A stretch of DNA of 54,756 bases from Trueperaceae bacterium (GTDB lineage: Bacteria > Deinococcota > Deinococci > Deinococcales > Trueperaceae). The DNA lies in NCBI GenBank assembly GCA_036381035.1, contig DASVDQ010000029.1, positions 1 through 54,756 on the forward strand, read 5' to 3'. Under the pieces are notes generated by a model. The model saw nothing but the letters and a program-made list of their open reading frames with translations, did no database searches and had not been told where the DNA came from. The position numbers and the translations under genes are program-made. Below, one piece after another: positions 18,679 through 23,646 of the stretch. The number at the start of each line of letters is the position of its first letter. Position 1 is the first letter of the stretch.

Positions 18679-19905
18679 TCAGGCCCTGAAGATCACGTCC
18701 TCGCGGCTGAAGTTCCGGTGGGCGAACGCGAGCAGCAGGGCGATCACCACGGCCAGCGACGCCCAGGTGACGAGGATGGAGGAGAGCGCGGCCGTGCCCT
18801 TGACGATGTCGTCCATCACGAGCAGGGCGTTGAGCACGGGGATCATGTAGGCGCCGTCGCCGATGCCGATGAGGTCCTTGAACTGCAGGCCCACGGCCGG
18901 TATCACGAAGAGGAACGAGAGCGGCGCGATGTAGCTCTGCGCCTCCTTGAACGAGCGCGCGAACAGCGCGATCGAGAGCAGCACCGCCGCGACGACGGAG
19001 GCGAGCAGCACCGCGCTCATGAGGAGCAGGAGCACGCTGCGCGCGTCCACCGAGAGGCTGCCGCCCATCATCGCGACGATCGAGCCGCCCTCGTCGCCCA
19101 GGCGGGGCAGGAAGACGCCGCGCATGACCGCGCCGCCGAGCAGGTAGCCGCCGATCGCGGCGATCGCCGCCGTCAGGCCGAAGGTGAGCGTGGCCAGGAA
19201 CTTGCCGAACACGACCTCGGAGCGGCGCACCGGCGCCACCAGCAGCGACTCGAGCGTGCCGCGCTCCTTCTCGCCCGCGGTGGCGTCGATGGCGGTCATC
19301 TGGCCGCCCGTGAGCGTCCAGATGGCGATGAAGAACGGGATCAGCCAGGAGAGGACGCCGCTGCTGCGCTCGGCCTCCGAGCTGGCGTCGACGTCGGTCA
19401 CGGCCACCGGCTCGAGGATCGCGGGGTCGAGGCCCTCGGCGCCGAGGCGCTCCGCCACCACGCCCTGCTGGTAGGCGGAGACGGCGTTGCGCAGCTTGCC
19501 CACGTTCAGCTCGCTGCGCATGTTGCCGGCCTTGCTGTAGAGCTGGACCTCGGCCCTGCCGCCGGCGGCGATGGTGTCCTCGAAGCCCTCGGGGACGGCG
19601 ATCGCGGCGGGCACCTCGCCCTCGCGGACCGCGGCCTCCGGGTCGTCGACCGCGACGAGCGACACGTTCTGCGCCTCGATCGCCGTGCGCAGCTCCGGCG
19701 GCATGTGCTCGGCGCCGGCGACGCCCAGCTCGGTGACCGTGGTCGCCTCGCGCTCGAACAGCCCGCCGAGCAGCAGCGGCATGCCGAGCATCACCACGGG
19801 CAGCATCGCGAGGGGCAGGAGGATGTTCGAGACGATCGCGCGGCGGTCGCGGAACGTCGAGAGGACCTCCTTGTGGGCGATGTCCCAGATGCGGCTCCAC
19901 CTCAT
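18679..19905 (-). CDS. natB: ABC-2 type exporter permease, NatB-like
   Basis: 408 residues. The start at ATG 19905 has a clear AGGAGG site and overlaps the natA stop (ATGA). The topology is typical of NatB/YhaP: a first helix (about 20-45, IVSNILLPLAMLPVVMLGMPLLLGG), a large external domain (about 50-180, with TTVTELGVAGAEHMPPELRTAIEA), then five or six helices including IPFFIAIWTLTGGQMTAID and the signature AGEKERGTLESLLVAPVRRSEVVFGKF. It forms an exporter with the ATPase encoded just upstream; in Bacillus the homologous pair extrudes sodium. Substrate here is not certain. Confidence 0.88.
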   Translation of the reverse strand: MRWSRIWDIAHKEVLSTFRDRRAIVSNILLPLAMLPVVMLGMPLLLGGLFEREATTVTELGVAGAEHMPPELRTAIEAQNVSLVAVDDPEAAVREGEVPAAIAVPEGFEDTIAAGGRAEVQLYSKAGNMRSELNVGKLRNAVSAYQQGVVAERLGAEGLDPAILEPVAVTDVDASSEAERSSGVLSWLIPFFIAIWTLTGGQMTAIDATAGEKERGTLESLLVAPVRRSEVVFGKFLATLTFGLTAAIAAIGGYLLGGAVMRGVFLPRLGDEGGSIVAMMGGSLSVDARSVLLLLMSAVLLASVVAAVLLSIALFARSFKEAQSYIAPLSFLFVIPAVGLQFKDLIGIGDGAYMIPVLNALLVMDDIVKGTAALSSILVTWASLAVVIALLLAFAHRNFSREDVIFRA

Positions 19906-20678
19906 GCCGCCACCTCCTGGGCCGCGATGCCGGAGCGGGAGACGAGGCGGAAGAACGCCTCCTCGAGGCTCTGCGACTCGGTCTGCGCGTTGAGCTCGGC
20001 GACGGTACCCTCGGCGATCTTGCGCCCGCCGTAGATCACGCAGCAGCGGTCGCAGAGCTCCTCGACCTCGCTCATCACGTGGGTCGAGTAGATGACCGCG
20101 CGGTCCTCGGACGGGTACGCCTTCACGAAGTCGATCACGGCGCGCCTGGCGACGACGTCGAGGCCGCTGGTGGCCTCGTCGAAGAAGATCACCGGCGGGT
20201 CGTGGATGACGGCGCGGGCGACGACGACCTTCTGCTTCATGCCCGTGGAGAAGCCGCCGGCGCGCCTGTCGAGCGTGTCGCCGAGGGAGAGCAGCGCGTC
20301 GAGCATCTCGATGCGCTCGTCCACGGCGGACTCGTCCATGCCGTAGAGGCGCCCGAAGTAGCGGAGGATCTCGCGGCCGGTGAGGCGGTCGTAGAGCCCC
20401 ATCCCGCCGTTCACGACGCCGATGCGGGCCCTCACGGCCTCGGCGTCCCCGACGACGTCGTAGCCGGCCACCTTGGCCGTGCCGGCGTCGGGCTTGAGCA
20501 GGGTGGCGAGGACGCGGAGCGTGGTCGTCTTGCCCGCTCCGTTGGGCCCCAGCAGCCCGTACACCTCGCCGCTGGCCACGGAGAAGCCGAGGTCGTCGAC
20601 GGCGACGACCCTCTTGCCGCCCTTGCCCCCCTCGAACGTCTTCCGCAGCCCCTGTACCTCGATCATCGGAGCGTCCAT
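19902..20678 (-). CDS. natA: ABC transporter ATPase, NatA-like
   Basis: 258 residues. Walker A is LLGPNGAGKTTTLRVL, the signature is GGFSTGMKQKVVVARA (the FSTGMKQ variant typical of NatA/CcmA-like ATPases instead of LSGGQ), and Walker B is VIFFDEATSGLD, followed by the H-loop YSTHVMSEVEELCDR. It energises NatB. The start is ATG 20678, with TAGCAT 9 nt upstream; a second ATG at 20666 also fits the family. The stop overlaps the natB start. Confidence 0.92.
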   Translation of the reverse strand: MDAPMIEVQGLRKTFEGGKGGKRVVAVDDLGFSVASGEVYGLLGPNGAGKTTTLRVLATLLKPDAGTAKVAGYDVVGDAEAVRARIGVVNGGMGLYDRLTGREILRYFGRLYGMDESAVDERIEMLDALLSLGDTLDRRAGGFSTGMKQKVVVARAVIHDPPVIFFDEATSGLDVVARRAVIDFVKAYPSEDRAVIYSTHVMSEVEELCDRCCVIYGGRKIAEGTVAELNAQTESQSLEEAFFRLVSRSGIAAQEVAA

Positions 20679-20811: not shown

Positions 20812-20817
20812 TATCAT
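20812..20817 (+). promoter_or_regulatory. -10 box of the gene upstream of ruvA
   Basis: TATCAT is 9 nt before the ATG at 20827. It probably drives the two-gene unit with ruvA. Confidence 0.5.
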
Positions 20818-20826
20818 CGCCGTCAC

Positions 20827-21639
20827 ATGCGCGAACGCGACATCGCGTCCCTCGACGACTACCAGCTGGTGCCCAAGGCGCTCCACGACGTCGAGGAGCC
20901 CGACCTCAGCGTCGAGGTGCTGGGCCTGACGCTCGAGTGGCCGCTGGTGGCGAGGCTGCCCGACGGCGCCTCCTGGCACGAGGCGCTGGCGCGCCCGGCG
21001 ACCGCCGACCTGTCGCGCCTCGGGGCCGTCGACGCCGCCGCGGTCACCGCCGAGCGCCTGAGCCAGTGCCCGCCCGGCTCCGTCGTCGCCGTGCTGCCGC
21101 CGCGCCGCATGGCCGAGCTCGTGGCCGACGTGAAGCGCCTGGCCGACCTGGGGGTGGGAGCGGTCGGGCTCGACCTGGCGCCGCTCGCCGAGGCCGCCCC
21201 CTTCGGCAAGGAGGCGTTCAGGCCGCGCACCCGTGAGGACCTGGCCGAGCTGCGGGCCGCGGCCGGGCTCCCGCTGTGGGTGTTCGGGGTGGGCGGCCCG
21301 GCCGACGCCGAGGTCGCCGCCGAGGCCGGCGCCGACGTCGTGGTCGTGAGCTCCGCGCTCGGCGCCCACCTGCGGGCGCCCGCGACCATAGACGTCCTGC
21401 CCGAGGTCGTCGACGCGGTGGCCGGCATGCTGACGATCGCCGCCGGCGGCGCCGTCCGCGACGGCGTCGACGCGTTCCGCTACCTCGCCGTGGGCGCCGA
21501 GCTGGTCGTGGTGGAGGGCGACCGCTCGCTGCCAGCGCTCGCGGCCGAGCTGGCCTACGCCTTCAGGCTCACGGGCTGCGCGACCTTCGCGGACGTCGGC
21601 TACGACGCCCTGTTCGCGCCGCTCTACACCGAGCCGTGA
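20827..21639 (+). CDS. Degenerate FMN-dependent alpha-hydroxyacid dehydrogenase-like protein
   Basis: 270 residues, compared with about 350-400 in the FMN_dh family. The N-terminus (LDDYQLVPKALHDVEEPDLSVEVLG) and C-terminal half (AEVAAEAGADVVVVSS, APATIDVLPEVVDAVAG, GGAVRDGVDAFRYLAVGAELVV, LTGCATFADV) align by eye with lactate/glycolate oxidase-type TIM barrels. The active site is not kept: the LKG lysine motif is WVFGV (151-155), and the SNHGGRQLD motif with the catalytic His and Arg is SSALGAHLR (175-183). The middle of the barrel is shortened. It is therefore probably not an oxidase; a structural or ligand-sensing role is possible. Its stop overlaps the ruvA GTG by 4 nt, so the two are co-translated. 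Confidence 0.75.
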   Translation: MRERDIASLDDYQLVPKALHDVEEPDLSVEVLGLTLEWPLVARLPDGASWHEALARPATADLSRLGAVDAAAVTAERLSQCPPGSVVAVLPPRRMAELVADVKRLADLGVGAVGLDLAPLAEAAPFGKEAFRPRTREDLAELRAAAGLPLWVFGVGGPADAEVAAEAGADVVVVSSALGAHLRAPATIDVLPEVVDAVAGMLTIAAGGAVRDGVDAFRYLAVGAELVVVEGDRSLPALAAELAYAFRLTGCATFADVGYDALFAPLYTEP

Positions 21640-22229
21640 TCGCGTTCGTCGAGGGCGAGGTCGAGGCCGTGGACGAGGCCAGCGTCGTCCTGCGGGTGGG
21701 CGGCTTCGGCGTCGAGGTGCAGGCGCCGGCGTCGACGCTGGCGCGCTGCCGCCCGGGCGAGCGCGTGCGTCTGCGCACCGCCCTGGTCGTGCGCGAGGAG
21801 CAGCCCTACCTCTACGGCTTCCACGAGCCCGACATGCTGCTGTTGTTCCGGCGCCTGCTCGAGGTCAACGGGGTGGGCCCGAAGATGGCCCTCGGCGTGC
21901 TGTCGGCCCTGCCCGTCCAGCTCATCGCCTCGGCCGTGGCGAACTCCGACCCCGGCCTGCTGACGAGCGCGCCGGGCGTGGGCAAGCGCACGGCCGAGAG
22001 GATCGTCGTGGAGCTGCGCAACAGGCTGCCCGAGCACCTCGTCTCTCAGGTGGCGGGGGCCGGCGCTCCGGGCGCCCTGGGCGCGGCCGGCCAGGACGCG
22101 GTGGACGCGCTGCTGGCGCTCGGCTACCGCGAGTCCCAGGTGAGGGGCGTCGTCGCCGAGCTGCTGCAGGACGACCCCGACGCCGCGGCCGAGACGCTGA
22201 TCCGCAAGGCCCTGTCGCGGGTCAGGTAG
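21636..22229 (+). CDS. ruvA: Holliday junction branch migration protein RuvA
   Basis: 197 residues from a GTG overlapping the preceding stop. Domain I is the OB-fold (VIAFVEGEVEAVDEASVVLRVGGFGVEV), domain II has two helix-hairpin-helix motifs (LLEVNGVGPKMALGVLSAL and LLTSAPGVGKRTAERIVVELRNRL), and the C-terminal domain III (about 150-197, DAVDALLALGYRESQVRGVV) contacts RuvB. RuvA tetramers bind four-way junctions and load the RuvB motor. ruvB and ruvC are not adjacent. Confidence 0.96.
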   Translation: MIAFVEGEVEAVDEASVVLRVGGFGVEVQAPASTLARCRPGERVRLRTALVVREEQPYLYGFHEPDMLLLFRRLLEVNGVGPKMALGVLSALPVQLIASAVANSDPGLLTSAPGVGKRTAERIVVELRNRLPEHLVSQVAGAGAPGALGAAGQDAVDALLALGYRESQVRGVVAELLQDDPDAAAETLIRKALSRVR

Positions 22230-22298: not shown

Positions 22299-23420
22299 TC
22301 AGGCCACTGACGCCCTCAGCGCCTCCGCGGGGGGCGTCCACGGCATGTCGAACGCGCTGGCCACGCCCTCGTGGGTCAGCTGGCCGGCGCAGGCGTTGAG
22401 GCCCTTGAGGAAGGCGGGGTCCTCGGCCAGCGCCGCGAGCCCGCGGTCGGCGAGGCGCTGCACGTAGGGCAGGGTCTGGTTGGCGAGCGCGCGCGTGCTC
22501 GTGTTCGGCACGGCGCCCGGCATGTTCGCGACCCCGTAGTGCACGACGCCGTCGACGACGTAGGTGGGGTCGTCGTGCGTGGTGGGGTGGATCGTCTCGA
22601 TGCAGCCGCCCTGGTCGACGGCGACGTCGACGATCACGCTGCCCTCCTTCATCGCCCCGAGCATGTCGCGCGTGACCAGCCGCGGCGCGCGGGCGCCGGG
22701 TATCAGCACGGCGCCGATGAGGAGGTCGGCGCGCGGCAGCAGCTCCATGACGTTGCCGAGGTTGCTGGCCATCGTCTGCACCGCGCCGCGGAAGACGTCG
22801 TCGAGGTACTGGAGCCGGGCGTGGTTGACGTCGAGGAGCGTGACGCGCGCGCCCACGCCGAGGGCGACCTTGGCCGCGTTGATGCCCACGGTGCCGCCGC
22901 CCAGGATCACGACCTCGCCGGCGTGCACGCCGGGCACGCCGCCCAGCAGCACGCCGCGCCCGCCGTGGGGGCGCTCCAGCAGGTGCGCTCCGACCTGTGC
23001 GGCCATGCGGCCCGCCACCTCGCTCATCGGCGTGAGCAGCGGCAGGCTGCCGTTCGCGAGCTGTACGGTCTCGTAGGCGATGGCCGTCGTGCCGGCGCGC
23101 AGCAGCGCCTCGGCGAGCCGCTGGGCGGCGGCCAGGTGCAGGTAGGCGAAGAGGATCAGGTCGTCGCGCAGGTAGCGGAACTCGGACTCGACGGGCTCCT
23201 TGACCTTCAGGACCAGGCGCTGCGCCCACGCCTCCTCGGCGCTGACGCCGACGCGCGCGCCCGCGGAGGCGTACTGCTCGTCGGTGAAGCCGGAGCCGAG
23301 GCCGGCGTCCTTCTCGACGAACACCCGGTGGCCCGCCGCGACCAGGGCCTGCACGGTTCCCGGGGTGGCGGCCACGCGGTGCTCCTGGGGCTTGATCTCC
23401 TTGACGACGCCGATGTCCAT
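22299..23420 (-). CDS. ald: Alanine dehydrogenase
   Basis: 373 residues, the normal length. It interconverts L-alanine and pyruvate plus ammonia with NAD+. Markers are the N-terminal MDIGVVKEIKPQEHRVAATP, the substrate Lys/His region (VLKVKEPVESEFRYLRDDLILFAYLHLA), the Rossmann loop VILGGGTVGINAAKVALGVGARVTLLD, and DVAVDQGGCIETIHPTTHDDPTY. ATG 23420 matches the family start and has GGGAGA upstream. The gap before truB (23421-23646) holds only its leader and possible promoter boxes. It feeds pyruvate to the oxidative pathways encoded elsewhere in the window. Confidence 0.96.
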   Translation of the reverse strand: MDIGVVKEIKPQEHRVAATPGTVQALVAAGHRVFVEKDAGLGSGFTDEQYASAGARVGVSAEEAWAQRLVLKVKEPVESEFRYLRDDLILFAYLHLAAAQRLAEALLRAGTTAIAYETVQLANGSLPLLTPMSEVAGRMAAQVGAHLLERPHGGRGVLLGGVPGVHAGEVVILGGGTVGINAAKVALGVGARVTLLDVNHARLQYLDDVFRGAVQTMASNLGNVMELLPRADLLIGAVLIPGARAPRLVTRDMLGAMKEGSVIVDVAVDQGGCIETIHPTTHDDPTYVVDGVVHYGVANMPGAVPNTSTRALANQTLPYVQRLADRGLAALAEDPAFLKGLNACAGQLTHEGVASAFDMPWTPPAEALRASVA

Positions 23421-23646
23421 GCGTGTCTCCCGGCATACGGGCGCGACCCATGGCGGGCGCGCCCAGGTTCTCGCTAGCCGTCCTAGGGCGACTCTACCCC
23501 GGCCTCGGCCCGGCGGCCGCCGCGGACGCACCGCGGGGTAGAAGCTGGCGGCGGGGCAGGCGCGCGGGGCCGCTCGTCCTCCGGCGCCACGACGGCGGTG
23601 CGCCGGCGGCGGCGCGCGGAGCGCGTGATGGACGACCTGCGGCGCC

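Follow-up and report, generated by a model that had tools for sequence, protein, structure and literature searches.

The systems closest to the gene reported here are the enzymes of the FMN_dh family, in which we take the flavin-side Lys and the phosphate loops (DGGVR and GR) to have the roles usually given to them under the spinach numbering, and the operons of ruvA, whose common partners are ruvB and ruvC. For lactate oxidase, the part of the literature available assigns roles to Tyr40, Tyr146, Arg181, Tyr215, His265 and Arg268 (PMC7039449). A survey of EC 1.1.3.15, in the portion of its text at hand, describes seven active-site residues as conserved across the FMN_dh family, and eight of its ten inactive proteins were without at least one of the seven (PMC8491902). 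When residue names were sought in another paper (PMC10153336) the sole match lay in its reference list, and no title listed by a literature search, mostly outside subscription journals, deals with the family that we describe.

Our subject is the gene preceding ruvA in a stretch of 54,756 nucleotides from a Trueperaceae bacterium (assembly GCA_036381035.1, contig DASVDQ010000029.1), called the window throughout (Table 1). Its Pfam match would, we expect, file it as an alpha-hydroxyacid oxidase. Comparison of the sequences of its relatives gives good support to a loss of the oxidase chemistry, and the protein, here termed a pseudo-oxidase, probably does a job other than that of an oxidase.

Table 1. 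Features of the pseudo-oxidase locus, in positions of the window
Feature	Position	Strand	Remarks
Pseudo-oxidase gene (FMN_dh-derived barrel without catalytic Lys and His)	20827..21639	+	ATG to TGA, 270 aa
GTGA, overlap of pseudo-oxidase stop and GTG start of ruvA	21636..21639	+	
ruvA, Holliday junction branch migration protein	21636..22229	+	TIGR00084, E 3.9e-52
Divergent neighbour, ABC transporter ATP-binding protein	19902..20678	-	named by eye from Walker motif
Convergent neighbour, alanine dehydrogenase (Ald)	22299..23531	-	AlaDh_PNT domains
Phe153 at the Lys position of [LIV]KG in intact enzymes (WVFG)	21283..21285	+	from the alignment
SSALGA replacing SNHGGR (catalytic His, substrate Arg)	21349..21366	+	His to A177, Arg to A180
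GGAVR replacing DGGVR (flavin-phosphate loop)	21445..21459	+	from the alignment
Asp116, at end of predicted strand 112-116	21172..21174	+	invariant, 35/35
Conserved segment GKEAFRPRTREDLAELRAAAG with family-specific Arg134, Arg136, Glu141	21205..21267	+	
Conserved C-terminal block ELAYAFRLTGCATFADVGYDALFAPLYT	21547..21630	+	Cys251, Tyr259, Pro265 each 35/35
TATCAT, -10-like box 15 nt 5' of ATG	20812..20817	+	putative promoter of pseudo-oxidase, by position also of ruvA

The locus and its FMN_dh ancestry

An earlier note on this DNA, made from the letters alone, had described an in-frame gene overlapping ruvA by four nucleotides, and the frame is indeed one of 270 codons with GTGA common to both genes; the RuvA encoded downstream is complete, a domain search finding its N-terminal, HhH and C-terminal domains. 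The same note had derived the protein from the FMN_dh barrel and had named a missing profile match as telling against this descent. The profile search gave a match: the window protein hits Pfam FMN_dh (PF01070) with 103.3 bits (E 1.8e-29; the curated cut-off is 24.9), in two stretches of which the best covers residues 125-229, and FMN_dh was likewise matched in all 26 members scanned (E <= 0.001). When the window protein was run by phmmer against the sequences of solved structures, the top matches were lactate oxidases and hydroxyacid oxidases. The same enzymes are recovered, with E down to 6.2e-33, by a profile built from the window protein and 25 relatives (26 sequences). In the window the FMN_dh match extends five codons 5' of the ATG (from 20812), an extension that we attribute to chance because the same run crosses an in-frame stop in two relatives (G001 and G017).

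A similar result comes from predicted structures. AlphaFold2 models were made for the window protein (26-sequence alignment; pLDDT 86.7, pTM 0.86) and for L031, a distant member from a second Deinococcota family (23 sequences; pLDDT 84.9, pTM 0.82), and both have the barrel fold of glycolate oxidase. The former aligns to 1al8 over 244 residues (Z 23.8, rmsd 2.9, matches within Z 1 being tied) and the latter to 6a4g over 217 residues (Z 21.4, rmsd 2.6). Among the matches listed, the structural matches of both models are FMN_dh enzymes, with glycolate and related oxidases the best for the window protein, and the prediction is thus of a barrel that forms in spite of lacking the N-terminal segment and most of loop 4. 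The statement that the protein aligns to the family along its length holds for the core and fails for these two segments, the window protein having 270 residues, and members in general 238-280, against 335-461 in the 11 intact FMN_dh paralogues compared.

The old oxidase site

For the comparison of residues, 35 of the 37 members found (G109 and G110 were left out) were aligned jointly with 11 intact paralogues. Twelve loci had been taken and 11 passed a requirement for the KG and SNHGG-type motifs (L089 did not), so the 11/11 of this set at those motifs is by construction and the set serves to place the columns. At the column of the flavin-side Lys no member has Lys (0/35), the residue being Phe, Tyr, Asp, Ile, Ala, Val or Ser; the catalytic His of SNHGGRQ and the Arg in the GR motif of the flavin phosphate are each absent from their columns in all 35 members, as is the Asp of DGGVR, the Arg of which is kept in 24. 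The phosphate-loop glycines persist more widely, Gly208 in 35/35 and Gly207 in 29/35. Searched as text patterns, SNHGGRQ, D[GS]GVR, QLY and [LIV]KG each occur in 0/35 members. The substrate Tyr motifs (the N-terminal Tyr segment and QLY) are likewise found in none, against 11/11 intact paralogues, and the loop-4 pattern in none against 10/11. A loose pattern, [LIVA]GR[PA], is present in 12/35 members, and by eye it is the AAGRP segment before W151 and not the GR column.

The earlier note had listed the Lys, the His and the substrate Arg as lost, and had named relatives with intact His and Lys as the observation that would count against it; such relatives were sought, and 0/35 aligned members have these residues. 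With the Arg the claim goes too far: the window protein has Ala180 at the substrate-Arg column of SNHGGRQ, but Arg stands there in 15/35 members, so its loss is not a trait of the family. By the known mechanism, the pseudo-oxidase cannot be an alpha-hydroxyacid oxidase.

Fourteen columns from the former active site, chosen by hand, were compared with the other well-aligned columns. Mean conservation within the family is 0.595 at the old-site columns against 0.736 elsewhere (permutation P for a value as low, 0.005), and in the 11 intact paralogues, a set partly selected by these motifs, it is 0.972 against 0.718; the old-site columns, once better conserved than the rest, are thus now less so. 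Among the residues that at least 85% of the 35 members share are His20, Asp116, Arg134, Arg136, Glu141, Asp196, Arg218, Cys251, Tyr259 and Pro265, and most of them differ from the intact enzymes. For instance, the column of the invariant Asp116 holds Thr in 11/11 intact paralogues, though the Asp may be inherited and the alignment shifted, since the intact enzymes have an Asp two residues past that Thr.

The proposal that selection maintains the gene is borne out in close relatives, where dN/dS is 0.095-0.213 in eight pairs (from four clusters, the pairs not being independent), a value that indicates purifying selection; the window gene's own pairs are too distant for this measure. In 12 distant pairs (among 20 listed of 595 computed), pairs with the window gene included, dN/dS is 0.61-0.98, values that we set aside because synonymous change looks saturated, held down by GC-rich composition. 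Across the same 22 genomes the mean pairwise distance is 0.45 for the pseudo-oxidase, 0.41 for RuvA and 0.26 for Ald. A decaying pseudogene was also considered and is ruled out by stop-free frames in 37 members, by dN/dS and by a rate near that of RuvA. The pseudo-oxidase therefore has marks of a pseudoenzyme, namely homology to an enzyme, loss of the catalytic residues and purifying selection, the last as measured in relatives. The earlier note's further step, to a non-catalytic function, is less secure, since the barrel may have taken up a new chemistry.

Distribution, linkage to ruvA and the upstream box

A family-profile search found members in 37 of 111 Deinococcota genomes, each with at least 284 bits; the match after these drops to 84 bits, and among the lower-scoring proteins the 11 translated and retained are intact FMN_dh enzymes. 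The carriers are 33 of 39 genomes in f1, the family to which the window belongs, and the four listed for a second family (f5), this 4/4 holding among the matches listed, where 22 of the 111 genomes stand without a family label. The remaining 68 genomes have none, an absence that applies to this sample, which by the genera listed is apparently without Deinococcus proper. A scan of named records with two strict peptide patterns gave 24 loci labelled Trueperaceae, Truepera, Deinococcales, Deinococci or Deinococcota, mostly the first two, and a plasmid collection gave no match to the pseudo-oxidase. In a tree of the 35 aligned members and the 11 intact paralogues, rooted at its midpoint and sampling this phylum, a branch with support 100/100 separates the family from the intact paralogues; within this sample we favour a single origin.

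Three f1 genomes without the gene (G026, G027 and G030) have no ruvA match either, and with assemblies 77-90% complete the locus may simply be missing from them. ruvA without the pseudo-oxidase is found in the f1 genomes G003, G007 and G024 and in three f2 genomes examined. The first three (L101, L092 and L096), of 1.8-2.7 Mb, have ruvA and give no pseudo-oxidase match, carriers of 2.3-2.5 Mb also existing; their lack of the gene is possibly a loss. The four f5 members (L031-L034) form a shorter subtype of 238-239 aa, in which the residues around P-x-G before the RPR segment are missing and S-A-x-E-L stands where others have T-R-E-D-L. One fast-evolving member, L035 in G009, has an end branch of 1.13 and no adjoining ruvA, and its role has possibly changed.

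Sequence downstream of the gene is available at 36 loci, one of the 37 stopping at a contig edge. At 30 of the 36, ruvA is the next gene on the same strand within 300 nt, with the 4-nt overlap at 24; the two f5 genomes that show the linkage have 216 and 287 nt between the genes. At the other six loci, ruvA lies 3.5 kb downstream (G021), about 2.8 kb downstream (G004), about 177 kb off (G012) or on other contigs (G009, G040 and G044). The divergent ABC gene recurs at three of these six (L014, L016 and L021), where no other recurring neighbours were seen by eye. The coupling to ruvA that the earlier note had emphasised is thus the usual arrangement but not an obligatory one, given the six unlinked loci and the several genomes with ruvA alone. 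Pairwise distances of the pseudo-oxidase in 22 genomes correlate with those of RuvA at r 0.914 and with those of the Ald control at 0.829 (partial 0.694), correlations that are not independent because the genomes are related and the genes neighbouring.

Upstream, every one of the 35 genes has a TAnnnT sequence with its first letter between -18 and -11 of the start codon; in the ten other 8-nt bins taken from the upstream 100 nt the count is 0-4 of 35 per bin. The exact form TATCAT occupies the -18 to -11 place in 20/35 genes and occurs nowhere else in the 100-nt upstream stretches. The extended form TGnTAnnnT is seen in 18/35 members. One report, in the part that we could consult, calls a -10 region adjoining the open reading frame, read there as a sign of leaderless mRNA, common in Deinococcus-Thermus (PMC12340547). 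From its position and conservation we infer that the TATCAT/TAnnnT box is a leaderless-type promoter, and because of where the box lies the pseudo-oxidase very likely stands first in a leaderless transcript, which would include ruvA where that gene adjoins. A wrongly chosen start codon hiding the N-terminal Tyr segment was considered and rejected, the box standing 11-18 nt before the aligned start in 35/35 genes and the segment being absent from 35/35.

Possible functions and known systems

We tentatively favour, at a probability of roughly 45%, the reading that the family is a flavin-free, non-oxidising TIM barrel, a single FMN_dh-derived lineage in this sample, whose stable fold serves to bind another protein. 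The lost residues argue against oxidase function and flavin binding, the variable face of the old active site argues against a new ligand site common to the whole family, and it is these two together that make a protein-binding scaffold the preferred reading. The pseudo-oxidase and ruvA would form one transcript, and the barrel would for that reason be made together with RuvA; it would bind no flavin, its working surface would include the RPRTREDLAEL helix and the N- and C-terminal segments, and it would act by protein contact, with RuvA as the first candidate for a partner and not the sole one. RuvA is the natural first choice because the genes are coupled and the evolutionary distances match. 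Against this partnership the linkage is loose, as seen in the unlinked loci and in the genomes that have ruvA alone, and we regard as decidedly unlikely the narrower proposal that the dead barrel is a dedicated partner or regulator of RuvA in Trueperaceae and a second Deinococcota family, made in step with it from one leaderless transcript.

The scaffold reading has to be weighed against several others that the same data suggest. TIM barrels often switch reaction, and the protein may be a new enzyme, one that gave up flavin chemistry for another reaction carried out at Asp116 and the residues around it. The invariant Asp116 could be the sign of a new site, active or ligand-binding, and so speaks against a scaffold, its presence in 35/35 members as opposed to the Thr of 11/11 intact paralogues (in this alignment) being an argument for such an enzyme; it loses force if the residue is inherited from the Asp two residues past the Thr, and the examined strand-end residues of the old-site face vary, except Asp116, Gly154 and Gly208. 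We hold a new enzyme to be unlikely, though a serious candidate. A ligand sensor, binding FMN or another phosphorylated molecule without turnover and passing a signal to RuvA or elsewhere, would fit the partly retained phosphate loop, in which Arg211 (24/35) accompanies the two glycines. The Arg kept in DGGVR and, in 15/35 members, at the substrate column count against the scaffold, as if part of the family bound a ligand. The Arg of GR, the Lys, the Asp of DGGVR and QLY, however, are all at 0/35, and a sensor of this kind seems to us quite unlikely. FMN drives the folding and tetramer formation of one lactate oxidase, according to the part of that study available (PMC7039449), so a flavin-free family must fold another way, a point that cuts both ways.

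If the gene were a cis-acting leader cistron, setting the translation of ruvA by coupling on a leaderless mRNA with its protein secondary, the 4-nt overlap at 24 of 36 loci and the box in 35/35 genes would be accounted for, but the constraint acts on the protein (dN/dS 0.095-0.213), and gene and box are kept at the six loci where ruvA is not next; this is a long shot. As a regulatory subunit the protein would pair with an intact FMN_dh paralogue in its own cell; such a paralogue exists in the genome of the window (G000:C108) and, among the four f5 carriers, in three (L038, L084 and L088). Full-length FMN_dh (above 400 bits) is, however, found in 4/39 f1 genomes (G000, G019, G029 and G036), and 29 of the 33 f1 carriers show none, some of the assemblies being incomplete. 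A heteromer of this kind was rejected as unlikely for the window's family, f5 differing with its three of four, and as an account of the whole family it is hardly credible.

The family offers a clean example of a flavoenzyme barrel that a whole lineage has turned to a different use; 37 natural variants are there for study, and its position before a DNA-repair gene offers a direct genetic test. Deinococcota are known for stress resistance; if the RuvA-partner reading were true, a metabolic enzyme would here have been remade into a lineage-specific factor of DNA repair.

Set beside known ruvA operons, the locus shares a full RuvA, here directly downstream of the pseudo-oxidase, whereas upstream of ruvA the usual partners ruvB and ruvC give way to a barrel from a different superfamily. 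With the FMN_dh family, which includes glycolate, lactate and mandelate oxidases, flavocytochrome b2 and MftD, the pseudo-oxidases share the predicted barrel with its core strands and helices, as well as a PRxL N-terminal segment, a GxDxxRxLAxGA-type segment and the C-terminal helix. Unlike that family they lack the Tyr segments, the phosphate GR at its column and most of loop 4, and have RPRTREDLAEL and LTGC...Y...P blocks of their own. In the survey of EC 1.1.3.15, eight of the ten inactive FMN_dh proteins, so far as the available text describes them (PMC8491902), are also short of at least one active-site residue; those are single sequences that were assayed, whereas the pseudo-oxidases are a whole lineage in which the site is lost and which is still under selection.
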